Shown here one piece after another: positions 3,082 through 43,319 of a DNA stretch of 43,358 nt. The translations under genes and the position numbers were made by a program. Each line of letters begins with the position of its first letter. The stretch's first letter is position 1. Source of the stretch: an uncultured Croceitalea sp. (GTDB lineage: Bacteria > Bacteroidota > Bacteroidia > Flavobacteriales > Flavobacteriaceae); contig CALBVX010000119.1 of the NCBI GenBank assembly GCA_937969515.1, positions 1 through 43,358 on the forward strand, written 5' to 3'. The notes beneath the pieces are model-generated. The model was not told the DNA's origin. It saw only the letters and a program-made list of their open reading frames with translations, and did not search any database.

Positions 3082-3680
3082 GTAAGGGAGGCAAGCTTAT
3101 TATATTTTCGGCTCCATCAGGGAGTGGTAAGACAACCATTGTTCGCCATTTGTTAAACCAGCCAGAATTAAACTTGGCGTTTTCGGTTTCTGCCACCTCA
3201 CGTCCTCGTCGCGGTAAGGAAAAAGATGGTGTTAATTATTACTTTATAACCGCCAATGAGTTTAAAAAGCATATTAAAAATGATGACTTTTTAGAATGGG
3301 AAGAAGTTTATAGAGACAGTTTTTATGGTACTCTAAAGAGTGAGGTAGAACGACTTTGGGCTGAGGGTAAAAATGTGATTTTTGATATTGATGTTGTAGG
3401 CGGACTTCGTATAAAAAAGAAGTTTCCAGAACAGACTTTGGCGGTATTCGTAAAACCGCCCAGTGTAGACGAATTAAAAATTAGACTAAAAAAACGCAGT
3501 ACGGAGAGTGATGATAAGATCAATATGCGAGTCGCCAAGGCTTCTGTAGAATTGGCAACTGCTCCTCAGTTTGATGAAATCATTAAGAATTATGATTTAG
3601 ACATTGCCTTAGAGGAAGCCCATCAATTGGTTGCCGATTATGTGGGTGCTACCTATAAAAATTCTCAAGAAGAGGAGTGA
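3078..3680 (+). CDS. gmk: guanylate kinase
   Basis: The product is 200 residues. It phosphorylates GMP to GDP with ATP in the cytoplasm, an essential purine-nucleotide step. The Walker A loop APSGSGKTT lies at residues 12-20, followed by the GMP-binding region SATSRPRRGKEKDGVNYYF. The lid and adenine-binding region around INMRVAKASVEL is present towards the C-terminus. The start ATG overlaps the end of yicC, and its stop overlaps the start of nadD. There is nothing unusual in length or motifs. Confidence 0.96.
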   Translation: MSKGGKLIIFSAPSGSGKTTIVRHLLNQPELNLAFSVSATSRPRRGKEKDGVNYYFITANEFKKHIKNDDFLEWEEVYRDSFYGTLKSEVERLWAEGKNVIFDIDVVGGLRIKKKFPEQTLAVFVKPPSVDELKIRLKKRSTESDDKINMRVAKASVELATAPQFDEIIKNYDLDIALEEAHQLVADYVGATYKNSQEEE

Positions 3681-8328: not shown

Positions 8329-10602
8329 TTATTTTTCAATTCTGGCAGGCTCAACAGAGCTATCATGTTCTGTATAATATAGCTCTAAAAGCTTCATGGT
8401 AGCCTCAATCATATCCTTACTTTCGGTTAGAAGTGAGAAATATAACGAAGTGTTTTTTGGACTTGATTCCTCCGTACGTGTTCTAGCTACTTGTGTTTCT
8501 ATTTTGTCGGATACCAAATCAAAATACTCTTGCTTTTTATTCAGAAGGGCTCCGATATTTTGAAAATTTCTACTACTGAATATATCGGTACTATCTTTTA
8601 AAAGTCCTTCTAAATGATTATCCAAATCTTTTAGTTCTTTAATTTGATTGTATTTCAATTTACGATGATTGTTGTTGACATGGGTGTAACTGATCTTAGC
8701 GATATATTCTAGCGATTGTGCCAAATCTTGCAAATGGCCTAGCATAACAATATAAAAGTTACTTGCCCCACCGACGCTCGATTCATCTAAATTTTTAATA
8801 AAATAATAGATATTATCTTGAAGGCCGTCAACCTCTTTTGAGAGTTTAGACATTCCTTTTTTATTCTTTTTAAGATCATCAATATTGTGTTTTGCCAACC
8901 CATTGATAGAGCTTGTATAAATCTTGTTGCTTCGCTTTATAACGTTACCAATGTTATCGGCACTTTCTTCAATGACCCCTTGAATAGAGCTGCTCTCAGC
9001 TCTTCTTAAGCTGTCTTCAGCTTTGGTGACCTTGGTTTTCTTGTTATGAGCGATATAATTGCGTAGTAAAAGTCCTGCAGCTAAAACCAGTAGAACCAAT
9101 AAGGCAACAAAACCACCGAAATGAAGGATAGTGGCAATAATAGCCGCAGCAGTAAAAGCGCTAAATGCAGTAAAAAACCATCCGCCAATTACATTAAGTA
9201 CCCCGGCAACCCGATATACCGCGCTTTCGGCCCCCCAAGCACGATCTGCCAAAGAGGTTCCCATGGCGACCATAAAGGTCACATAAGTAGTAGAAAGAGG
9301 TAATTTCATTGAGGTTGCAATCGATATTAATACACTGGCGACCATTAAATTTACCGCCGCCCTTACCAAATCAAAAGCAGGCAAATCTTGTACCTTGCTT
9401 TTTGGAACATAGGTGTAGGGCACCGCAAATCGTTTGTCTATTTTATTTTTTAGGTTTTCAGGTAAAATTGTGGAGAAACCTTCAAAAGCAGAAACACTAA
9501 GTTTTACGATTTGTCGTGAAATAAAATTAGGCTGAAATCTTTCATCGCCCTCATCTTGTCTGGCAAGATCAACACTGGTTTTCACCACACTTTTTGCCTT
9601 TGAAGAAAACCATAATGTTACGACCATTACCCCGCCAGATAAAAGCAATAATAAAGTTGGGGTTCTTACTGCTGCAGATAAACCTTGCATATTAAATTCA
9701 GATGCGGCGATTCCTGAACCTTGCCAATCTTGAAAAGATTGTAGCGCTGCAATGGGCACCCCAATAAAATTTACAAGATCGTTACCGGCGAAGGCCATGG
9801 CCAGGGCAAAGGTGCCCAAAATAATAACGACCGTATAAATATTCCATTTTAAAAATGTTGAAAAAATCCAAGAAAGCAATGTCCAGAAAAATAAATTGCC
9901 GACAATGAACAGTTCTGGAGATTCGCTAATGAACTGGGTTATAGATTCATCAAAAATAGCGGCGCTCTTAAGGCCTTTTACGATGATAAAGTAAATAATG
10001 GCAGTTATCGCCAGACCACCAAAAATAGACTCTACCCATTTTGGTTGGTTTTTATATTGAAAAGAGATGAGAACCCTTGAAATAAATTGCACTATTGCCC
10101 CTATGGTAAAGGCGATAAAGACCGAAAGCAAAATTCCGAAAATAATTTGGGTGGCTTTCTCGGTATTTATATAATTGTTGAGGTCAGAAAAGCTTCCTTC
10201 GATTCCGTAGATTTTAATAAGCGAGATCGCCACAGCGGCCCCTAATAGTTCGAATACGATGGATACCGTCGTAGAGGTTGGCATACCGAGGGTATTAAAA
10301 AAATCGAGGAGCAGAATATCGGTAATCATTACGGCCATGAAAATGAACATAATTTCTTCAAAAACAAATTCCCCCGGATTGAAAATACCTTTTCTAGCTA
10401 CTTCCATCATACCACTAGAAGACATTGCCCCAAGTGCAATACCTAAACTTGCAACAATCATTACAGTTCTAAAAGTGACGGCTTTCGAACCTATGGCAGA
10501 ATTCAAAAAATTAACGGCATCGTTACTAACGCCAACAACTAAGTCGGTTATTGCTAAAAGACCAAGTGCAACAACCATAAAAATGTAGATATTCTCACCC
10601 AT
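8329..10602 (-). CDS. inorganic phosphate transporter, PiT family, with PhoU-like C-terminal domain
   Basis: The product is 757 residues. The membrane part (residues about 1-500) carries both PiT repeats. The first has GVSNDAVNFLNSAIGSK and MPTSTTVSIVFELLGAAVA; the second has AGNDLVNFIGVPIAALQS and PLSTTYVTFMVAMGTSLADR. These contain the conserved asparagine-aspartate and STT positions that bind phosphate and the coupling ion. Residues about 520-757 are soluble, mostly helical and charged, resembling a PhoU-type four-helix bundle. This tail makes the protein longer than the usual 400-500 residues and suggests built-in regulation of uptake. The DUF6503 gene follows. Confidence 0.9.
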   Translation of the reverse strand: MGENIYIFMVVALGLLAITDLVVGVSNDAVNFLNSAIGSKAVTFRTVMIVASLGIALGAMSSSGMMEVARKGIFNPGEFVFEEIMFIFMAVMITDILLLDFFNTLGMPTSTTVSIVFELLGAAVAISLIKIYGIEGSFSDLNNYINTEKATQIIFGILLSVFIAFTIGAIVQFISRVLISFQYKNQPKWVESIFGGLAITAIIYFIIVKGLKSAAIFDESITQFISESPELFIVGNLFFWTLLSWIFSTFLKWNIYTVVIILGTFALAMAFAGNDLVNFIGVPIAALQSFQDWQGSGIAASEFNMQGLSAAVRTPTLLLLLSGGVMVVTLWFSSKAKSVVKTSVDLARQDEGDERFQPNFISRQIVKLSVSAFEGFSTILPENLKNKIDKRFAVPYTYVPKSKVQDLPAFDLVRAAVNLMVASVLISIATSMKLPLSTTYVTFMVAMGTSLADRAWGAESAVYRVAGVLNVIGGWFFTAFSAFTAAAIIATILHFGGFVALLVLLVLAAGLLLRNYIAHNKKTKVTKAEDSLRRAESSSIQGVIEESADNIGNVIKRSNKIYTSSINGLAKHNIDDLKKNKKGMSKLSKEVDGLQDNIYYFIKNLDESSVGGASNFYIVMLGHLQDLAQSLEYIAKISYTHVNNNHRKLKYNQIKELKDLDNHLEGLLKDSTDIFSSRNFQNIGALLNKKQEYFDLVSDKIETQVARTRTEESSPKNTSLYFSLLTESKDMIEATMKLLELYYTEHDSSVEPARIEK

Positions 10603-35518: not shown

Positions 35519-36388
35519 CTATAAACTGGCCTTTAGTTTCCTAAACTTATTTGGAGGCAAAAGGTATTTTTTTTTAAAAGCTTTAATGAAATGTGATGTA
35601 TTTTTAAAACCACTTTCATGACAAATTTCATTGATATTCATTTGCGTACTGGTCAGTAATAACTTACCATGATCGAGTCGTCTATTAATGAGCCATTTTG
35701 ATGGCGTTGTTTCAAAACATTTGTTGAAATCTCTCTTAAAACTTGAAAGACTTCGGCCTGATAGTTTTGCAAAGGCATCAATAGGTAGGTCATATTGAAA
35801 ATTATTGATCATGACTTGTTCAATATTCGCTTTTTTATGATCCGCGATATCAAGTAATACGTTAATCAATGTTCTATTATTCTTGTTTAAAGTGATGGTA
35901 TATATCAATTCTTTAAATTTCAGTTCTACAAGTTCGGGAGGTATGGGCATATCCATAGTAAGATATTGTAAAATACTATTTATTAAAGTCTGGTATGAAC
36001 TGTTTGAGTGAATTTTGTATACGCCATCAAATTCAGATTCAACGTTCGATACGTTAGAATTTAAATGATTTTGCAAAACAAAGTTTCTAATGAAATCATC
36101 ATTCATAAAAAACAACATGACGCAATAGTCTTCATCAAGATATTGCTTAGTCGAATACACCCCTTTTTTAACAAATAGTGTATCTCCTGCAGTAAGACAA
36201 TGGGTTTGTCTAGGGGTTATCCAATCCTTTCGTCCACTAATAACATAGGTGATTAGATGAGATTTTGTCCATAATTGAAATTCTTCAACGTTGAGCGGGC
36301 ATTTATATTCAACCAAAAGGAAGTCATTTCCGATGTGCTTATTGAATTTAGGATGCTTTTTAAAAAATTCGTAAACATCTACGGTCAT
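35519..36388 (-). CDS. AraC-family transcriptional regulator
   Basis: The product is 289 residues. An N-terminal cupin-like sensing domain (ITPRQTHCLTAGDTLFVKKG) is followed by two C-terminal helix-turn-helix units. The first is around FAKLSGRSLSSFKRDFNK; the second, INEICHESGFKNTSHFIKAF, precedes PNKFRK. It resembles the AraC gene at 37455-38294 in layout. A structured repeat begins 17 bases upstream of its ATG, so its promoter must lie inside or across that repeat. It probably controls the methyltransferase gene behind it. Confidence 0.88.
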   Translation of the reverse strand: MTVDVYEFFKKHPKFNKHIGNDFLLVEYKCPLNVEEFQLWTKSHLITYVISGRKDWITPRQTHCLTAGDTLFVKKGVYSTKQYLDEDYCVMLFFMNDDFIRNFVLQNHLNSNVSNVESEFDGVYKIHSNSSYQTLINSILQYLTMDMPIPPELVELKFKELIYTITLNKNNRTLINVLLDIADHKKANIEQVMINNFQYDLPIDAFAKLSGRSLSSFKRDFNKCFETTPSKWLINRRLDHGKLLLTSTQMNINEICHESGFKNTSHFIKAFKKKYLLPPNKFRKLKASL

Positions 36389-36405: not shown

Positions 36406-36733
36406 TAACGCCGCGCTATGCGCAGTCCGGCTAATTTTAAGGAAATATAGCAAAATCAAACCAACTATGTATCGGATATTTATCATCCTTATAAATTCGC
36501 TATATGGTTCGTCAAGGAGTTTGCTTTAGCGGAGGTATTCTTGTTGATTTGGTGCCTGCTCATCTTTGAAGGGGTATTGGGCTTAAAATTAGACCTACCA
36601 CCGAGAGCAGCGACCGATGAACACCCTTAAAATAAAAGTAACAGTGAATGAATTGCGGTTTAGCGTACTGATATGTTTTGTTGATAGGCTAGCGACGATT
36701 TTGGCAATCAGTCTCTCGTATTACAATATACTT
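36406..36733. repeat. structured intergenic repeat, copy 1
   Basis: This is a non-coding stretch of about 330 bases, alignable end to end with 41622-41956 in the same orientation. It opens with TAACGCCGCGCT, then shares CTAATTTTAAGGAAATATAG and a 130-base block (36573-36702). That block differs at about 15 positions from 41804-41934 by hand count. Middle sections differ. Copy 1 fills most of the 414-base gap between the PEBP-like gene and the AraC gene. No protein frame of note was found. It may be a MITE-like or REP-like element. Confidence 0.8.
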
Positions 36734-36741
36734 GTTTAAAT

Positions 36742-36771
36742 GAAAAACGGTTCGAGTTTGCACCCGAACCG
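36742..36771 (-). terminator. rho-independent terminator behind the PEBP-like gene
   Basis: CGGTTCG at 36748-36754 pairs with CGAACCG at 36765-36771. On the minus strand the hairpin is followed by TTTTTC. It lies 31 bases behind the stop of the PEBP-like gene. Confidence 0.72.
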
Positions 36772-36802
36772 CTATTGCTTTTATATCTTGTTAGAGACAG
36801 TT

Positions 36803-37360
36803 TTATTTCTTACTTCTTTGATAATAAGTAACAATACTCGCCTTAGCCAATGTATTGTTCCATAAGTAATAGCCAACTACTGCAGGGTTTGTACTTTCAT
36901 TAAGACCAAGTTTATCTGTTTTAAGAGCGTAAATTGTGATTATATATTGGTGTAAACCGTGTCCTTCAGGAGGGCAAGGACCTCCATAACCAGTTGCTCC
37001 ATAATCTGTAATACTCTGAATAACACCTTCAGGTGTTAAGTTTAGTTTTGTATTTCCAGCTCCAGCTACTAAATCGTTAGTGCTTACTGGAATATCAAAT
37101 ACTACCCAATGCCACCATCCGCTGCCAGTTGGTGCATCTGGGTCGTACATAGTTACTGCAAAACTTTTAGTTCCTGCAGGTGCATTTTTCCAAGATAACT
37201 GAGGGGACTGATTTTCGCCAGTACAGCCAAAGCCATTGAATTCTTCGTTAATTGTTGCTTGTCCACCTAAATCATTACTTGATACAGTAAATGTGTTTTG
37301 TCCGAAAACGAAAGTTGAAAAAAAAATTAATACTGTTAAGATTTGAAATGATTTTATCAT
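36803..37360 (-). CDS. YbhB/YbcL-type PEBP (Raf kinase inhibitor-like) exported protein
   Basis: The product is 185 residues. A signal peptide ends VFGQ at about residue 21. The phosphatidylethanolamine-binding fold shows GENQSPQLSWKNAPAGTKSF, then TMYDPDAPTGSGWWHWVVFD, then a GPCPPEGHGLHQY segment near residue 130; these form the anion-binding pocket. Bacterial members are periplasmic or cytoplasmic proteins of unclear function. It is monocistronic, with its own terminator, a -7 box and a palindrome upstream. The neighbouring AraC gene reads in the same direction. Confidence 0.92.
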   Translation of the reverse strand: MIKSFQILTVLIFFSTFVFGQNTFTVSSNDLGGQATINEEFNGFGCTGENQSPQLSWKNAPAGTKSFAVTMYDPDAPTGSGWWHWVVFDIPVSTNDLVAGAGNTKLNLTPEGVIQSITDYGATGYGGPCPPEGHGLHQYIITIYALKTDKLGLNESTNPAVVGYYLWNNTLAKASIVTYYQRSKK

Positions 37361-37390
37361 AATATTTGTTTTTAATTATTAATTACGATG

Positions 37391-37398
37391 CAAATCTA
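37391..37398 (-). promoter_or_regulatory. -7 box for the PEBP-like gene
   Basis: On the minus strand TAGATTTG fits TAnnTTTG, 30 bases before ATG 37360. No -33 element is obvious. Confidence 0.45.
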
Positions 37399-37418
37399 AA
37401 CAGCAATTGAGGCTGTTT
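37398..37418. promoter_or_regulatory. 7-bp inverted repeat upstream of the PEBP-like gene
   Basis: AAACAGC (37398-37404) and GCTGTTT (37412-37418) are exact reverse complements with a 7-base spacer, sitting in the -10 to -33 interval of the predicted promoter. It is a candidate regulator site. Confidence 0.35.
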
Positions 37419-37454
37419 GTTAATCAGAAAAGTTCAAAAAGTATTGATAAAAGT

Positions 37455-38294
37455 TCAGTTTGATTGGTACTGTTTTGGAGTGACTCCGAATTTTGTTTTA
37501 AAAGCTTGAATAAAATTAGATAAGTTTTCATATCCAATTTCTTCAAAAATATCTGAAGGTCTTTTTGATTCGTTTTTTAGAAGAAAAGCTGAGTGTTCTA
37601 GCCTTTTATCTTGAAACCACTTGCTAGGTGACCTCTTGAAGTTTTTCTCAAACTCTCTCTTGAAAGTTGATACACTCATATTTGATAAAAATGAAAGCTC
37701 TTTTATTGTGAGTTTATTGAGTCTGTTGCTTTCAATTGTTTGAATGAACTTTTGATTTTGATTATCACTATTATTAACCAAAGAATAAAGAAAATCTAAA
37801 CCTTTCAAGTCTACAAGGTAAAGCATTATTTCCTCGAGTTTTGTTTTCAACATATTTTCTTGAATCGACTTAGAAAATTTCGATATATCTAAAAGGCTTT
37901 CAACAAATCTCTTTATAAATGAATCATACTTGAACGAATAGGTTGAGTACAGTTTTTTGGAATTAGAAGTCTCTAATTTAAATTTTCGCAAAAATTTAAA
38001 AACTTCTTCGTCCGAAAAGAAAAATAGAACACTGCGATAATGTTCTGAATCATTAGAGAGCTTCTCTGTCATTAAACAGTGCCCAGATTTCATTAATAGA
38101 AATTGAGAATTATCTATTGCATAGGCCGAATTATCAAAAAACACTTCTTTAGTTCCTTCTTGGAGAAAGCTAAAGGTATTTTTATTTAATAAGATTTGTT
38201 GTTTCGATATTTCAGTGATGCTTTCATAATCATAAACCTCAACAGATTTAGAAGAACTCAAATTTAATTCGTCTGGTAATGTAATAGTTTTCAT
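37455..38294 (-). CDS. AraC-family transcriptional regulator
   Basis: The product is 279 residues. The N-terminal sensing part (about residues 1-170) includes EGTKEVFFDNSAYAIDNSQF. The DNA-binding end has two helix-turn-helix units: ELSFLSNMSVSTFKREFEKN, and IFEEIGYENLSNFIQAFKTK before GVTPKQYQ. Layout and motif wording parallel the AraC gene at 35519-36388, so the two are probably related. It lies upstream of the PEBP-like gene in the same direction, which is its simplest target. It is AT-rich like the rest of this region. Confidence 0.88.
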   Translation of the reverse strand: MKTITLPDELNLSSSKSVEVYDYESITEISKQQILLNKNTFSFLQEGTKEVFFDNSAYAIDNSQFLLMKSGHCLMTEKLSNDSEHYRSVLFFFSDEEVFKFLRKFKLETSNSKKLYSTYSFKYDSFIKRFVESLLDISKFSKSIQENMLKTKLEEIMLYLVDLKGLDFLYSLVNNSDNQNQKFIQTIESNRLNKLTIKELSFLSNMSVSTFKREFEKNFKRSPSKWFQDKRLEHSAFLLKNESKRPSDIFEEIGYENLSNFIQAFKTKFGVTPKQYQSN

Positions 38295-38414
38295 TGGGTT
38301 CTCTAATTGTCTCTAACGGTCTTGTGTTCGAAACGTATTGTATAAATAAACAAAAACCTCTCGAAAAGCCTGTAATTGCTCTGTTTTGTAAACGTTTTTA
38401 CCATTAGTTTTTAT

Positions 38415-38882
38415 TTAGTGTAAGTAGGAATTGAGCATCCAAAGCGTTTTCTCCGTTTGAGAAATATAATCACTCATTAAACTGACAGTTCCTTCATCGT
38501 TCGCTTCACTTGCCAAGTCTAAGATATTTCTTTCTTTTTTAATTAGAATAGAGAAGTTTTTCACAACAATATTAATTCCTTCAGTCCCATTTGTTACGCT
38601 TTTCACTTCCTTAATATTAGATGTATCAAGATAGTCCGTAAATGTGTGTAATGGCTCTCCTTCTAATGTTAATATTCTTTCAGCTATTTCATCCACTTTG
38701 ATAACAGCATCATTATAAAACTCTTCAAATTTTAAATGTAACTCAAAGAATTCTCTCCCTTTGATATTCCAATGTAGTCCTCTCAAATTTTGATAAAACA
38801 GCTGATAGTCGGCCAACAGTTGATTTAACTTTTTATTGAGTTCTTCAGCTTTTATCTTATCTATTCCTATTAAGTTTTTCAT
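38415..38882 (-). CDS. dps: Dps-family DNA-protection ferritin
   Basis: The product is 155 residues, the normal miniferritin length. It forms a dodecamer that oxidises and stores iron and protects DNA under starvation or peroxide stress. The ferroxidase ligands fall in LRGLHWNIKGREFFELH (His37 and His49) and KVDEIAERI (Asp64, Glu68), all in canonical spacing. It is the last gene of a minus-strand series with the sulfurtransferase (106-base gap). No TAnnTTTG box is seen in the gap, so read-through from upstream is possible. Confidence 0.93.
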   Translation of the reverse strand: MKNLIGIDKIKAEELNKKLNQLLADYQLFYQNLRGLHWNIKGREFFELHLKFEEFYNDAVIKVDEIAERILTLEGEPLHTFTDYLDTSNIKEVKSVTNGTEGINIVVKNFSILIKKERNILDLASEANDEGTVSLMSDYISQTEKTLWMLNSYLH

Positions 38883-38988
38883 TTTAGGTTATTTTTATTT
38901 TTGAAATTGGATATCCACAATTTTTTCTGTCTCAAACGATATAAACTATATAGTACTTAAAGTTCCCTCATCACCACTTCTCACAAAT

Positions 38989-39861
38989 TTAAAGGGATTG
39001 AACTATTGGTCTAGTTGGGTCGAGCTTCCAAACACTAAATGATCCATCAAATAAACTAGATTCAATTCCTAAACTTGCCAAAGCCAGCATTGCAACTGTA
39101 CCTGAATAACCAGAGCCACAAGAGCAAATTATTTTTTTAGTTCGCCAATAAGGAATCGTTCTGTCAAATAATTCAGTAATCTCAGAAATTTCAATAAAAA
39201 GCCCCGTGTTTTTATCTAAAAGCGAATTATATGCAGCATTAATTGCTCCGGGAATATGACCAGTTCGAAGATCCTCAGATTTTCCGTCATAACCTGCTTT
39301 GCCACGTCCATCCAAAACACATGAATTACCTTTTTCAGCTATGAAATCTTCGAGAGTTTTTCTCAAATGATATTTGGGTTTTGGTTCAAATGAACCTTTT
39401 GCGATTTTTGTTATTTCTTTAGAAACAGAGAAGCCTTGTTTTTTCCAGTAATTAAAACCTCCATTTAAAACTTGCACATTATTAAAGCCCCAATAACGCA
39501 TTGCCCACCATATTCTACCAGCGAACATATGATGGTAATTATCATAGAGAATTACTTTATCTTCTTCATTAATACCTAAGTCTATAAAAGATTGCTCAGC
39601 TTCTTTAAATGATGATAATTGAGCTAAACTGGGTATAACATCTTTTTCTATAAACTCTTTTCTCCAGTCAAGAAATTTTGCTGTTGGAATGTGTTCGTCT
39701 TCATAATCAGAATACAGTGAGGTTGGTTCTGTTCCCCAAATACCTCTTACGTCGAATATTTTAACATTAGGTTCTCCTATAATATTATTTAATTCTTTGG
39801 CTGTAATTAACGGTGAGACCAATTTCTCACCGTTAATTATATTTAAATTCTCAATACTCAT
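38989..39861 (-). CDS. two-domain rhodanese-type sulfurtransferase
   Basis: The product is 290 residues with tandem rhodanese domains. The first runs from about residue 18 (VKIFDVRGIWG) to about 125, the second from about 155 to the end. The catalytic Cys248 lies in the loop CGSGYSG. A CGSG loop is closer to 3-mercaptopyruvate sulfurtransferases than to the CRKG loop of thiosulfate sulfurtransferases. A perfect 15-bp inverted repeat overlaps codons 8-19, so the first residues may be a leader and translation could start later (TTG at codon 14). It lies in an apparent operon behind the RidA-like gene. Confidence 0.88.
   Translation of the reverse strand: MSIENLNIINGEKLVSPLITAKELNNIIGEPNVKIFDVRGIWGTEPTSLYSDYEDEHIPTAKFLDWRKEFIEKDVIPSLAQLSSFKEAEQSFIDLGINEEDKVILYDNYHHMFAGRIWWAMRYWGFNNVQVLNGGFNYWKKQGFSVSKEITKIAKGSFEPKPKYHLRKTLEDFIAEKGNSCVLDGRGKAGYDGKSEDLRTGHIPGAINAAYNSLLDKNTGLFIEISEITELFDRTIPYWRTKKIICSCGSGYSGTVAMLALASLGIESSLFDGSFSVWKLDPTRPIVQSL
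39804..39839. promoter_or_regulatory. perfect 15-bp inverted repeat in the sulfurtransferase start region
   Basis: The arm at 39804-39818 (TAATTAACGGTGAGA) is the exact reverse complement of 39825-39839, with the 6-base loop CCAATT. In RNA it would form a very stable hairpin spanning codons 8-19 of the sulfurtransferase. It has no T-run and so is not a typical terminator. Confidence 0.6.
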
Positions 39862-39897
39862 TTTTAATATGATTAAGTTCTAAATAAGAAAGAAGTG

Positions 39898-40389
39898 TTA
39901 TTCTGGTTTATAAACCTCAACTTCTATTTCAATCATAAACTCAGGTAAAGCCAATTCTTTAACACCTAACCAGGTAGATTTTGGATATTGATTTTCCGTA
40001 TATAATGATTTTCGATATTCTAAATTATTCATAAATGCTGCCATATCTGTTGTATACACGTTTTCAACAATTATATCATCAAATGTACAGCCATAATGTT
40101 CTAGCATTTTTTGTATATCTGCATAACAATTTTTCATTTGCTGCGAATAATCGCCTACTGCCGTAGGTTTCCCAGAGGCATCCATACTGACAGCTCCAGA
40201 GGCTTTAATATGATTACCAATTTTTATTGCAAATGAATATCCAAATCCATTTTCTACTTCTTTTGATCTTAATTGAAAGTGCTCTGTTTTTTCTGTCTTT
40301 TTTCCCATTTGTTTATCGTTTTTATTTTGTGCTGTAACAGACCCAATTGTTAATAACATAATTGCTAAAATTTTCACTGTTTTTTTCAT
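39898..40389 (-). CDS. exported RidA/YjgF-family protein
   Basis: The product is 163 residues. The signal peptide ends VTAQ (cleavage near residue 20), unusual for a family whose best-known member is cytosolic. The RidA core follows: IKASGAVSMDASGKP, QMKNCYADIQKMLEHYG, and IVENVYTTDMAAFMNN. The position of the deaminase arginine (PARS in RidA) reads YPKSTW, so that Arg is missing. This fits the Rid subgroups that lack imine deaminase activity. It lies 11 bases behind the oxidoreductase gene and 36 bases before the sulfurtransferase, in one operon. Confidence 0.88.
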   Translation of the reverse strand: MKKTVKILAIMLLTIGSVTAQNKNDKQMGKKTEKTEHFQLRSKEVENGFGYSFAIKIGNHIKASGAVSMDASGKPTAVGDYSQQMKNCYADIQKMLEHYGCTFDDIIVENVYTTDMAAFMNNLEYRKSLYTENQYPKSTWLGVKELALPEFMIEIEVEVYKPE

Positions 40390-40400
40390 GATTATAGTTT

Positions 40401-40916
40401 TTATTTAAATGTATTTATATATGCTAATGTATTTTCTTGTATTGATTGCTCAGAAGGATTGAACATTGCACCATAGAAAACATGAAGTTTATCAACGATA
40501 CAACCACAATATTGAAAGCTTAATTTAAAATCGTTTAATAAGTCGGATACACTAATTGCAGAGGTAGCATCGTAAGATTCCTTTTTACCTCCTGTGGAAA
40601 CGGCAAAGTGAATTTTTTTACCTTTTATTTTATCTCCACTAGGACCAAAAGCCCATCCGTAGGCAAGTACTTCATCTATATATTTTTTTAATGCGAATGG
40701 TGTGCTAAACCAGTGGAACGGAAACTGAAAAATTATTTCGTCATGTGCTGACAGTAAATTTTGTTCATCGGTAATATTAAAATCAAGATTTGGATAGTTG
40801 TCATATAATGAGTGGATTATAAAATCATCTGGATACTTTTTTAATTCATTAATCCATGAATTATTTACTTTCGATTCTTCTAAATTTGGATGGGTTATTA
40901 CTATTAATTTTTTCAT
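40401..40916 (-). CDS. NAD(P)H-dependent oxidoreductase (flavodoxin-like, KefF/MdaB type)
   Basis: The product is 171 residues. This flavoprotein quinone reductase family reduces quinones by two electrons and so limits redox cycling. The fold starts with KKLIVITHPNLEESKVN (phosphate-binding loop). FQFPFHWFSTPFALKKYIDE is the family signature, and GKKIHFAVSTGGKKESY follows. It is the first gene of the operon with the RidA-like protein, sulfurtransferase and probably dps. A -7 box sits 27 bases upstream. The Crp/Fnr gene lies 104 bases upstream in the same direction. Confidence 0.9.
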   Translation of the reverse strand: MKKLIVITHPNLEESKVNNSWINELKKYPDDFIIHSLYDNYPNLDFNITDEQNLLSAHDEIIFQFPFHWFSTPFALKKYIDEVLAYGWAFGPSGDKIKGKKIHFAVSTGGKKESYDATSAISVSDLLNDFKLSFQYCGCIVDKLHVFYGAMFNPSEQSIQENTLAYINTFK

Positions 40917-40943
40917 CTGTACTGTTTATTTAAATTATAAATA

Positions 40944-40951
40944 CAAATGTA
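40944..40951 (-). promoter_or_regulatory. -7 box for the oxidoreductase operon
   Basis: On the minus strand TACATTTG fits TAnnTTTG, 27 bases before ATG 40916. It overlaps the small palindrome ATACA-AA-TGTAT (40941-40952), a possible regulator site. Confidence 0.45.
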
Positions 40952-41020
40952 TAATCAGTATATAACAGAAAAGTTAATCTATGATAATAAACTAAATTGA
41001 ATACTTATTTAATAATTAAG

Positions 41021-41605
41021 CTAAGAATCTCCTTTTGCTATTTCTTTTCTAATCCTACTTAGGCTTTCTTTGGTAATTCCTAAATATGAAGCAATGTGGT
41101 AGTTTCTAACATTTTGCTCAATTTCTGCATACGTATTCACGAATTGGATATATTTTTCTTTGGCAGAATAGCTTAATGAAGCGATGGTTCTTTTCTGAAA
41201 ACTAGCAATAGTATTTTCAAATTTTAACCTGAAGAAGGTTTCTAACTCGGGAAAATTGTTAAACAAAATATCTCTACCGTTTTTTGTCAATTTGATAAGT
41301 ATTGAATCCTGAATGCACTCAATATTCATAATAGCTTTTCTTCCTTGGAAGTAACCTGGATAATCACTAATCCACCATTCTTTTATTGCAAACTGCAATG
41401 TGTGTTCTTTTCCTTGTTCATCAATGAAGAAAGACCTTAAGCACCCAGAATAAATGAAATATTTATTTGAAACAGATTCTCCTTGTTTAATAAGAAGCTC
41501 TCCTTTTTTACAATTCACTTTAGTTAAATGGTTTGCAAGCAGGAGTATTTTTTCCTCTGACAAATCTACTTCTTTAAAAATATTATGGATTAATGATTTT
41601 TCCAT
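41021..41605 (-). CDS. Crp/Fnr-family transcriptional regulator
   Basis: The product is 194 residues from ATG 41605; a TTG three codons upstream is less likely. The N-terminal cyclic-nucleotide-binding-like domain (KKGELLIKQGESVSNKYFIY) is followed by QFAIKEWWISDYPGYFQG, typical of Bacteroidota Crp-like proteins. The C-terminal helix-turn-helix is around HIASYLGITKESLSRIRKE. No cysteine cluster for an iron-sulfur centre is present, so it is unlikely to be an oxygen sensor of the Fnr type. It may control the divergently unlinked but codirectional stress operon behind it. Copy 2 of the structured repeat begins 16 bases upstream of its ATG. Confidence 0.88.
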   Translation of the reverse strand: MEKSLIHNIFKEVDLSEEKILLLANHLTKVNCKKGELLIKQGESVSNKYFIYSGCLRSFFIDEQGKEHTLQFAIKEWWISDYPGYFQGRKAIMNIECIQDSILIKLTKNGRDILFNNFPELETFFRLKFENTIASFQKRTIASLSYSAKEKYIQFVNTYAEIEQNVRNYHIASYLGITKESLSRIRKEIAKGDS

Positions 41606-41621
41606 TTTATGCAATTAATGG

Positions 41622-41956
41622 TAACGCCGCGCTTTGTACGACAGCTGCGTAAGCAGTGCGCGGGTTGCAGCGTTGGGAGCTAATTTTAAGGAAATATAGC
41701 AAAATACTTTTAAGGATGTCATGTGAATTGGACTTCCTTATTCTCACATGACATCGTTCGCCAAGTAGTCCGCGCTAGCGGACGTATCCTTGTTGTATTT
41801 TGCGGTATTGGGATTAAAATTAGACGTACCACCGAGCGTAGCGACCGATGAACACCCGTAAAATAAAAAGCAACAGTGAATAAATTGTGTTATAGCGTCC
41901 TGATATGTTGCGTTGATAGGCTAGCGGCGATTTTGTTAAATAGTCCCTTTAATCTA
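41622..41956. repeat. structured intergenic repeat, copy 2
   Basis: This is the second copy of the approximately 330-base repeat at 36406-36733, in the same orientation and fading out around 41950. It contains three readable hairpins: CTGC-GTAA-GCAG near 41650; a 12-bp stem at 41715-41726 with 41744-41755; and GTCCGC-GCTA-GCGGAC at 41768-41783. Its 131-base conserved block is 41804-41934. With the following palindrome it fills the 490-base gap between the Crp/Fnr gene and the insertion sequence. No protein frame is evident. Confidence 0.8.
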
Positions 41957-41979
41957 TGTATTGAGCAATCTGACAGAGC

Positions 41980-42050
41980 GCGGCGATGATGTAACATTTC
42001 TAAAATTATGGGAATTGAACGTAGTGAGATGTAGTGATTTTAGTCGCCGC
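41980..42050. repeat. interrupted inverted repeat beside the insertion sequence
   Basis: GCGGCGA (41980-41986) pairs with TCGCCGC (42044-42050), and inside it CTAAAAT (42000-42006) pairs with ATTTTAG (42037-42043). The inner arms adjoin the outer arm on the right but are 13 bases away on the left. It ends 8 bases before the insertion sequence terminus. Confidence 0.5.
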
Positions 42051-42096
42051 AGGCGAATTGTCTTGTCCTGAAATATGGCTACAGGTTAAAATTGAT

Positions 42097-42951
42097 TTAC
42101 GCTGTTAATTTATATACCATATTAGGTGTATTATAGTTTAAAGATAAATGTAATCTAATTTCATTGTATAGATTGATTGCATTTTTTGTTGCACGCTTAG
42201 CGTGTTTTAAGCTATCAAAGGTTTGGTCGAGATAGAATTCGTCTTTTAAGATTCCGTTTACCCGCTCTGCCATGGCATTTTCGTAGCAATGGTTTTCTTC
42301 GGTCATACTGATAGCAATGTTGTTTCTTTTTAGAATTTGGGTGTATACATTACTACAGTATTGTATACCTCTATCGGAATGATGAATAATTCCATCGATG
42401 TTTTTAGCTTGGCATAAGGCTTTTTTTAAAGCCCTCACACAGCCTTTTAACTCCAAACTGTCACTTATGTCGTAGCCCACTATTTTGCGGCTGTGCATAT
42501 CTGTAATGAGTGCTAGATAGCAGAATCCTTTTATGGTTCTAATGTAAGTGATATCACTGACCCAAACTTGATTGGGTTTGGTAACCTCTAGGTCTTTGAC
42601 TATGTTTTTGTACTTATAGAACCTGTGCAATGAGTTTGTTGTTCTTGAGCTATATTTTTTTCTAAGTGTAAGCATATCGTATTTTCTAAGAATGTTGAAC
42701 AAGGTATCTCTACCAATTTTTAGATTGGCATTAGAAAACTCAGCGTCTAATGATTTGGTAAGTTTTCTAACACCTTCCCTAGGAAGGGATTTGCGTCTAT
42801 TCTTGACTATTTCTACAACCTTTTTCTCCATCTCCAAACGCTTGTCTTCTCTACGTTTGTATTTGTAGTAGGCATCACGTTTAAGGTCTAAAGAGTTGCA
42901 AACATTAGCTAAAGAAGCAAATCCCTTTGACTTTTTCCTGGCTTTTATCAA
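42097..42951 (-). CDS. IS3-family transposase OrfB (DDE integrase domain)
   Basis: The product is about 284 residues. An HTH_21-like N-terminal part is followed by the retroviral-integrase-like catalytic core with the DDE triad: VSDITYIRT, HHSDRGIQYCS, and ENAMAERVNGILKDE. The tail LHLSLNYNTPNMVY is typical of the family. The frame has no convincing ATG start; it begins with TTG and is open upstream into the slippery run, so it should be expressed as an OrfAB fusion through -1 frameshifting. All catalytic residues are present, so the element may be active. Confidence 0.93.
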   Translation of the reverse strand: MIKARKKSKGFASLANVCNSLDLKRDAYYKYKRREDKRLEMEKKVVEIVKNRRKSLPREGVRKLTKSLDAEFSNANLKIGRDTLFNILRKYDMLTLRKKYSSRTTNSLHRFYKYKNIVKDLEVTKPNQVWVSDITYIRTIKGFCYLALITDMHSRKIVGYDISDSLELKGCVRALKKALCQAKNIDGIIHHSDRGIQYCSNVYTQILKRNNIAISMTEENHCYENAMAERVNGILKDEFYLDQTFDSLKHAKRATKNAINLYNEIRLHLSLNYNTPNMVYKLTA

Positions 42952-43319
42952 GGCTTGATATTTAGCTTTTTTTTTAGTTCTAGAACAGATTTATAACCAA
43001 GCTGTTCTGCAGCTACCTCTAGATAGGATTCATCGATTAAAGCATCCATATCCTTTTTCAAGAGCAGTTTTTTAAGCTGTTCAATTTCCTTTTGAAGCTG
43101 TTTAATACGAGTTATTTCGTCTTTTGTTTTCACGGTTACTCTGGTGTTCATTAGGTCTTTACGATTGTACTTCTTGATCCATTCGTTAATGGTAGAAGAG
43201 TTGATACCATAAGCCTTACCTAATTGATACTTGTTTAGTTTTCCAGTGGTAAGTTCGTCTAAAATTTTGAGTTTAAAAGATTCTGAATAACGTCTAATTA
43301 CTTTGTCATTTTTGTACAT
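42948..43319 (-). CDS. IS3-family OrfA (helix-turn-helix, leucine zipper)
   Basis: The product is 123 residues. The helix-turn-helix is around GKLNKYQLGKAYGINSSTIN, followed by a coiled coil (EITRIKQLQKEIEQLKKLLL) typical of IS3 OrfA, which binds the terminal repeats and dimerises. It ends LELKKKLNIKP just past a run of nine A and one G. The ATG at 43319 lies 40 bases inside the right terminus. OrfA and OrfB overlap slightly. Confidence 0.92.
   Translation of the reverse strand: MYKNDKVIRRYSESFKLKILDELTTGKLNKYQLGKAYGINSSTINEWIKKYNRKDLMNTRVTVKTKDEITRIKQLQKEIEQLKKLLLKKDMDALIDESYLEVAAEQLGYKSVLELKKKLNIKP
42966..42975 (-). other. programmed -1 frameshift site of the insertion sequence
   Basis: On the minus strand nine A residues are followed by G (an A_AAA_AAG type heptamer). 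Slipping back one base converts the OrfA frame KKKLNIKP-stop into KKKAKYQAL, which runs on into OrfB. This is the standard IS3 way to make the fused transposase. Confidence 0.82.

Follow-up and report, generated by a model that had tools for sequence, protein, structure and literature searches.

The closest described relatives of the system discussed here are the integrons, in which the 5' end of a gene cassette complements the end at the cassette's own 3' site, and the XerA, XerC and XerD recombinases, which use a single dif site. The literature states that integron recombination uses the folded bottom strand of the attC site (PMC8946536), presents an additional domain as a defining feature of the integrase IntI (PMC9668308), and lists Bacteroidota (PMC8618304) or the Bacteroidetes/Chlorobi group (PMC2426708) among the taxa with integrons. 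Here we consider a stretch of 43,358 nucleotides (nt) from an uncultured Croceitalea sp. of the Flavobacteriaceae (assembly GCA_937969515.1, contig CALBVX010000119.1; the window, hereafter), in which two related non-coding repeats lie in direct orientation on either side of a block of genes. An original prediction, made from the sequence alone, proposed that these repeats could be a recombination or cassette boundary, an element resembling a miniature inverted-repeat transposable element (MITE), or a regulatory RNA element. It is the first of these readings that is supported: the block consists of two cassettes with inverted ends and a site between them, and cassette arrays in relatives stand beside a tyrosine recombinase. 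The repeats, which we call M, are very probably the long structured recombination sites of an integron-like cassette system.

Like integrons, this system holds tandem short genes in one orientation with a site at each 3' end (95 units), its cassettes, including the two in the window (A and B), have 5' ends complementary to the core of their own 3' site, the sites are attC-like two-box hairpins with a predicted preference for the bottom strand, and a tyrosine recombinase lies beside what may be a distinct junction. Unlike integrons, it has a recombinase that does not reach the cut-off for integron integrases and is without the IntI-specific insert, cassette ends that span 14 bases with a fixed G.T position, and M sites of up to ~360 nt. 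The integrons reported from Bacteroidota (In0 elements, Salinibacter ruber) come from the same phylum, whereas the recombinase described here occurs in 188 of 299 Flavobacteriaceae genomes and beside arrays in most of the sampled loci. It also resembles XerA, XerC and XerD, in that its best profile match is XerA and its relatives of solved structure are XerA (5hxy) and a XerC-like protein (4a8e), but it differs from them by ~90 extra N-terminal residues and by its tie to cassette arrays. A search of open-access papers in PMC, with subscription papers and preprints outside its scope, found no description of this system.

The rule that defines the cassettes emerges from arrays in Pseudozobellia and in G001 (numbers with G, C and L denote genomes, contigs and loci; G001 appears to be an uncultured Croceitalea assembly, G138 Saonia flava, G018 Pseudozobellia thermophila and G218 Pareuzebyella sediminis), where what follows one element reads as the reverse complement of what precedes the next. 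A scan for GTT...AAC inverted repeats describes these ends as GTT-N7-R-NNN, with ten matched bases, one mismatch and three further matched bases. Across 33 sequences (32 loci and the window), 58 pairs had the ten plus three matches, and 43 of them carried G versus A at position 11, 11 had no mismatch and four had another; reversed sequence gave five pairs, none of them G/A. The N7 varies between cassettes and agrees within one cassette. The mismatch is fixed in orientation, being A.C on the gene strand and T.G on the bottom strand, and it predicts the coding strand: 88 of the 95 strict units contain an open reading frame (ORF) of at least 50 amino acids (aa), and the longest ORF lies on the predicted strand in 81 of the 88 (median ORF 197.5 aa, body 756.5 nt, start codon 28 nt from the 5' end). 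This 14-base rule makes such cassettes findable from sequence alone.

Between the cassettes lie ordinary hairpin sites. Thirty of the 36 sites flanked by two strict units are 116-122 nt long in gene orientation (median 119), the others 140-193 nt. Their two boxes pair and covary, with 269 of 360 cells Watson-Crick paired against a shuffled mean of 170.6 and a maximum of 201 in 2000 shuffles, and slid registers pair only 0.20-0.40 of cells. At two further positions, each in 24 of the 36 sites, the gene strand sets A against C, a mismatch that becomes T against G on the bottom strand. Predicted stability favours the bottom strand in 34 of 36 whole sites (mean -20.8 versus -17.5 kcal/mol; Wilcoxon p 2e-7) and, with only the arms considered, in 27 of 36. 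The fixed mismatch of the cassette ends is similar, T.G on the bottom strand and A.C on the gene strand, so that pairing is better on the bottom strand.

The arrays are associated with a tyrosine recombinase of ~355-390 aa, whose distance to a strict cassette end is 50-920 nt in L111, L115, L116, L117, L118 and L120. Proteins matching the L111 recombinase at E<=1e-40 are present in 94 of 296 Bacteroidota genomes, and the same threshold underlies the Flavobacteriaceae count given above. Twenty recombinase loci of up to 20 kb, hand-picked from the match list, mostly away from contig ends and not at random, held 48 strict G/A pairs in 17 of the 20, although these 48 include three cross pairs between repeated cassettes of L178 and at least one likely chance pair there; 20 control loci, 16 from the same genomes and four from G001, G003, G256 and G244, held one pair in one locus. 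Other mismatch types numbered one in the recombinase loci and two in the controls, and reversed sequence gave none in either set. Twenty loci from outside the family, picked from the top matches, yielded 19 pairs in 11 of the 20, one of another type, and none in reversed sequence. The first junction beside the recombinase was, by reading, unlike an ordinary site in 17 of 19 cases, often ending in ATATAAACAA immediately before GTT. The protein contains Phage_integrase and SAM-like domains, preceded by ~90-100 N-terminal residues with no significant Pfam match, and the L111 protein scores best with the archaeal XerA profile NF040815 (218.6 bits, cut-off 220), followed by the integron integrase (202.4 bits, cut-off 265) and then XerD and XerC. 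The window's own genome encodes the recombinase on contig C157, adjoined by a complete cassette encoding a DMP19/MORN protein whose ends read GTTAGCTGTA[A]TGC at 1782 and, as reverse complement, GTTAGCTGTA[G]TGC at 3112. One single-contig genome, G249, has six recombinase matches, which suggests several platforms or paralogues.

The window can be laid out on this basis as follows.

35519-36388, minus strand: AraC-type regulator gene (Pfam), starting 21 nt from M copy 1.
36410-36716, minus strand: M copy 1, with its core at 36441-36553 (match to model R1 at 91.0 bits, and alignment).
36717-36789, minus strand: probable ordinary-site remnant between M copy 1 and cassette A, its right end reading ...GCTATTGCTTTTATATCTT directly before GTT (by inspection).
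36790-38317, minus strand: cassette A, with genes for a PEBP (36803-37360) and an AraC-type regulator (37455-38294) (Pfam).
36790-36803, no strand: left inverted end of cassette A (inverted-end scan).
38304-38317, no strand: right inverted end of cassette A (inverted-end scan).
38318-38396, minus strand: ordinary attC-like site of 79 nt that separates cassettes A and B and resembles a site in L033.
38397-41625, minus strand: cassette B, with genes for Dps (38415-38882), rhodanese (38989-39861), RidA (39898-40389), a flavodoxin-like protein (40401-40916) and a Crp-like protein (41021-41614) (Pfam).
38397-38410, no strand: left inverted end of cassette B, with one mismatch, at its first base.
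41612-41625, no strand: right inverted end of cassette B, adjoining M copy 2.
41626-41984, minus strand (cassette and gene orientation): M copy 2, a structured attC-like site of 359 nt (match to model R1 at 120.5 bits, family covariation).
41985-42060, minus strand: probable short-segment remnant after M copy 2, recognised against copies in L036, G001 and G003, cut by an insertion sequence; right edge approximate.
42097-43319, minus strand: insertion sequence containing two ORFs, next to the remnant that follows M copy 2.

Read along the minus strand, the order is therefore M copy 2, cassette B, cassette A, M copy 1 and another AraC gene. The ends of cassette A are GTTAGAGACA[G]TTT and, with the right end as reverse complement, GTTAGAGACA[A]TTA, that is 10/10 matches, G/A, and 2/3. 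A scan of the whole window at this level gave one other match, a 316-bp interval at 35764-36079 inside the AraC gene, which is taken as chance. The left end of cassette B, located by searching for the partner of the end adjoining M copy 2, falls 79 nt past the end of cassette A, and its ends are TTTACCATTA[G]TTT and, as reverse complement, GTTACCATTA[A]TTG (9/10, G/A, 2/3). The site between the two cassettes carries AAC followed by GGTCTTGTGTTCGAAACGTA at its left end, as does, in resembling form, an ordinary site in L033; positions 38305-38346 match G001:C3:3368-3409 in the L033 array, and there is a match in G004 too. All seven cassette genes lie on the predicted strand, and the gene calls between the repeats made at the outset (PEBP, AraC, Dps/ferritin, rhodanese, RidA, a flavodoxin-like oxidoreductase and a cNMP-binding/Crp protein) are upheld by Pfam. 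Ends, site, orientation and relatives thus support the reading of the window as an array of cassettes. The array looks old, given its short site, imperfect end, truncated M copy and an insertion sequence at its edge, which on reading of the protein we take to belong to the IS3 family. The window's right flank is this insertion sequence near the contig end. The remnant at 41985-42060 may derive from the segment found after M in relatives, the body of the proposed ORF-less cassette. Among seven other genomes of the genus the whole block was absent, with short fragments matched in five and nothing in two. No tRNA or tmRNA gene was found in the window.

The repeats themselves were rightly seen as related, non-coding and direct, but their proposed boundaries (36406-36733 and 41622-41956) give way to those listed above, and the TAAC taken in at the start is part of the neighbouring cassette end. 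Globally aligned, the originally proposed spans have 252 matches in 371 columns, 292 of them ungapped, so that identity is 86% over aligned bases and 68% over all columns; the alignment scores 234.5 against at most -82 in 200 shuffles, and neither repeat holds a conserved ORF. The ~130-base block shared at the 3' side exists, its predicted identity of 89% being slightly high (113/131, 86%). Homology in M copy 1 runs from 36410 to ~36716, and by inspection its 3' arm is missing, while the core of M copy 2 (41690-41803) folds on the plus strand and the copy has terminal arms GCCGCGCT/AGCGCGGC scoring 10/12.

The repeats were expected to be members of a family, and they are. The case in which only these two copies existed, named at the outset as contrary to that expectation, does not hold: five copies exist in the assembly that contains the window (174 contigs, 2.09 Mb, completeness 54%), where the window has two, contig C25 one and C31 two. 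Six of 59 genomes searched, its own included, gave matches, 12 of them in G001 and 14 in G003, two congeners, and model R1 with strict filters matched 10 of 199 Flavobacteriaceae genomes, with up to 18 copies (G138). Copies in several relatives are spaced by about one to three kb with short genes between. An array of Pseudozobellia thermophila (L037, G018) contains another long site type, AACGGCCAGACGGC..., that still holds the box GAAATATAGCAAA and the block GAGCGAAGCGACCGATGAACACC of M. At ~4478-4707 of L040 an M-type element passes without a gap into sequence for the C-terminal end of a tyrosine recombinase (a 58-aa open frame), as if a recombinase copy had been cut at that point.

The structure of M is conserved. 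From 61 box matches 54 cores were kept; 14 were flagged as spurious or cut short and seven of those restored at fixed length. Alignment A1 holds 49 of the 54, and A2 holds 30 of those, nearly ungapped, leaving out most divergent copies, of the Saonia type and others. MAFFT with RNAalifold on the 49 cores returned only four pairs because the first stem is poorly aligned, and the nearly ungapped 30 were used instead. On these, 92.4% of cells pair in a structure of 35 pairs drawn by hand, against 83.6% in shuffles, and there are 103 double-change cells against 39.6, a number reached by 0 of 500 shuffles; slid registers pair 36-42%. The number of pairs with a double change and that of further pair types were not above shuffles for the 30 cores (71/500 and 179/500). 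The 23 matches to model R1 are 92.0% paired with 104 double changes against 34.1; 20 of the 23 were not among the sequences that built the model, and all 23 were fitted to it. A search for terminal arms tried 52 copies, five of them outside A1, and found the AAC in 48. The arms occur in compensating types (GCCGCGCT/AGCGCGGC, TACAGCGCTAAA/TTTAGCGCTGTA and GACCTGCTAAAC/GTTTAGCAGGTC). In G001 a short segment comes after M, and an ordinary site after the segment; the segment's ends, GTTCGAGTC[G/A]ATT, obey the cassette rule, here with position 10 mismatched. From this arrangement we infer that M and the segment together form a cassette without an ORF, whose site is M. M is thus most likely a long attC-like site belonging to an ORF-less cassette, which would have spread through the arrays.

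It is appealing to propose the following scenario. A tyrosine recombinase of ~380 aa would lie beside a short attI-like junction, followed by gene cassettes that each end in a hairpin site. In an excised circle, the inverted cassette ends would complete the stem of the cassette's own hairpin; the recombinase would bind the folded bottom strand and exchange it with another site at GTT, and the exchange would insert or release one cassette at a time. The small ORF-less cassette bearing M would have inserted after many ordinary sites, which would account for the place of M immediately upstream of the next gene. Recombination between the two repeats could in principle remove the whole block, as originally suggested; the units would however be the single cassettes. 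More broadly, we lean slightly towards the view that Bacteroidota possess an unrecognised integron-type platform, where single-stranded cassettes folded from the bottom strand are exchanged by a XerA-like recombinase that lacks the IntI domain, G.T pairs in the sites and cassette ends, which on the opposite strand are A.C mismatches, encode the choice of strand, and the M cassette spreads and may bring a promoter to the genes behind it. Integrons are reported to be rare in Bacteroidota and the extra integrase domain is described as essential, and such a platform, if real, would change both views. It would also give access to a large store of accessory and defence genes that has gone unread, and provide a natural test of the recombinase features needed for single-strand recombination.

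Several points weigh against assigning M to an integron-like system. Recombination is a prediction from comparison and architecture. The IntI-specific insert is missing from the recombinase (23 residues between the matched stretches versus 66 in IntI4), and because this domain was looked for and not found we call the system integron-like and not an integron. Strict cassettes lie within 700 nt of the recombinase in only 19 of 48 loci, with none in 29 of 48; the nearest one in L119 is at a distance of 4.3 kb, and in G001 (L114/L031) ~5 kb separate a 290-aa frame from the first. M is confined to 10 of 199 family genomes, a far narrower range than that of the cassette system, collections of plasmids and phages gave no match to M in either, and clear terminal arms are present in only ~20 of 48 copies. 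Within the window, the site between cassettes A and B measures only 79 nt against the usual 116-122 nt, the end of cassette B is imperfect, its score being reached somewhere in the block by 9 of 300 shuffled 10-mers, a far cassette end for the AraC gene after M copy 1 was searched for and none was found, and the recombinase is on another contig.

It is conceivable, if doubtful, that M is mainly a 5' regulatory element, a promoter or mRNA leader that the cassette system merely distributes, and the regulatory RNA reading of the original prediction survives in this form. Its position fits, since 45 of 48 copies have on one side an ORF of at least 100 aa that starts within 160 nt and reads away from M, and 1 of 47 has such an ORF on the other side, against 0.325 for random points in the same loci, and the conserved box TTTTGCTATATTTCC toward the gene presumably resembles a Bacteroidota promoter. 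However, since all cassettes are co-oriented, any ORF-less cassette would fall 5' of a gene, and many cassettes lack M altogether. The stems of M on the bottom strand of the genes, opposite the mRNA, favour G.T over A.C (77 versus 34; 42 versus 13), a bias that points weakly to that other strand and is small when counted by columns (24 versus 20; 14 versus 7). Nor did a search of the window, to which it was confined, match any Rfam family at the gathering score.

That M is an independent non-coding, MITE-like transposable element with a preference for cassette sites as targets seems rather improbable to us. M is indeed repeated many times per genome and has inverted terminal arms, and other kinds of insertion sequences also occur in such arrays, but its position ties it to the cassette system, and in G001 it is followed by a segment with cassette-type ends and an ordinary site, as would be expected of an ORF-less cassette. 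A transposase whose ends resemble those of M was not seen, though no search was made for target duplications.

An ordinary integron array without IntI (CALIN), mobilised by a standard integrase elsewhere, is very unlikely, for all that the array architecture and bottom-strand hairpins are integron-like: none of the 59 genomes contained a match above the cut-off of the integron integrase TIGR02249 (weaker matches occurred in 58), a different recombinase adjoins the arrays, and the cassette ends are longer and follow their own rule. Finally, direct orientation and 86% identity might recall the remnants of a segmental duplication or of one gene with no role in mobility, a virtually negligible option given the covarying structure, the cassette ends and the copies in many genomes, which also dispose of a two-copy accident.

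Returning to the integron-like reading, some cassettes are common to different genomes and genera, with homology that stops near the predicted ends (23 comparisons, including three self-overlaps of one locus and reciprocals). L119 14587-15348 (G138) and L040 (G003) are 89% identical over 880 nt, at +6 to +124 from the ends, spanning one cassette and one site; L159 and L164 are 85% identical over 862 nt (-2 to +10), L097 5003-5714 (G138) and L111 14081-14798 (G003) 78% over 729 nt (0 to +11), and L160 and L041 80% (-10 to -24). Homology overruns or stops short elsewhere, as in L166 versus L169 (99%, 500 nt upstream), L031 versus L106, and L240 versus itself. In L178 (4128-7236) one cassette, with ends GTTATGTACA, occurs three times in the array in copies 93-99% identical.

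The contents of the cassettes are diverse. Seventy-six cassette proteins (76 of 87 ORFs, with 11 short, duplicate or doubtful ones excluded; set A4) matched 55 Pfam families at E<=1e-5, none of them in more than two members, and the 25 families listed include a C-5 cytosine methylase, an MvaI/BcnI nuclease, an AbiJ N-terminal domain, cation efflux proteins, hydrolases and AraC regulators. PADLOC matches, among the 25 of 124 models listed, include PtuA-like ATPases, AriA, a type II methyltransferase and PD-T7-4. A single cassette at L111 10410-13159 encodes a C-5 DNA methylase and, by reading, a PLD-like nuclease-type protein and a small helix-turn-helix protein, and looks like a restriction-modification set.

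Recombinase homologues also occur on plasmids: 69 plasmid records match at E<=1e-40, 50 of them from Acinetobacter, and six cover at least 80% of the protein. Four Bacteroidota plasmids were read (L267-L270; NZ_CP041688, NZ_CP094530, NZ_CP012644 and NZ_CP111080), with co-oriented small genes downstream of the homologue and strict ends near it in three of the four. Among the neighbouring genes, three plasmids have IS110 genes, one has an IS91-type gene and one a group II intron gene. A cassette at 9330-10417 on the plasmid of Chryseobacterium sp. SNU WT5 encodes Crp/Fnr and RidA proteins, the same pair of functions as in cassette B of the window; identity of the two cassettes was rejected, the Crp proteins being 30% identical and the RidA proteins having no meaningful match. 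One plasmid homologue carries the NCBI name 'site-specific tyrosine recombinase/integron integrase'.

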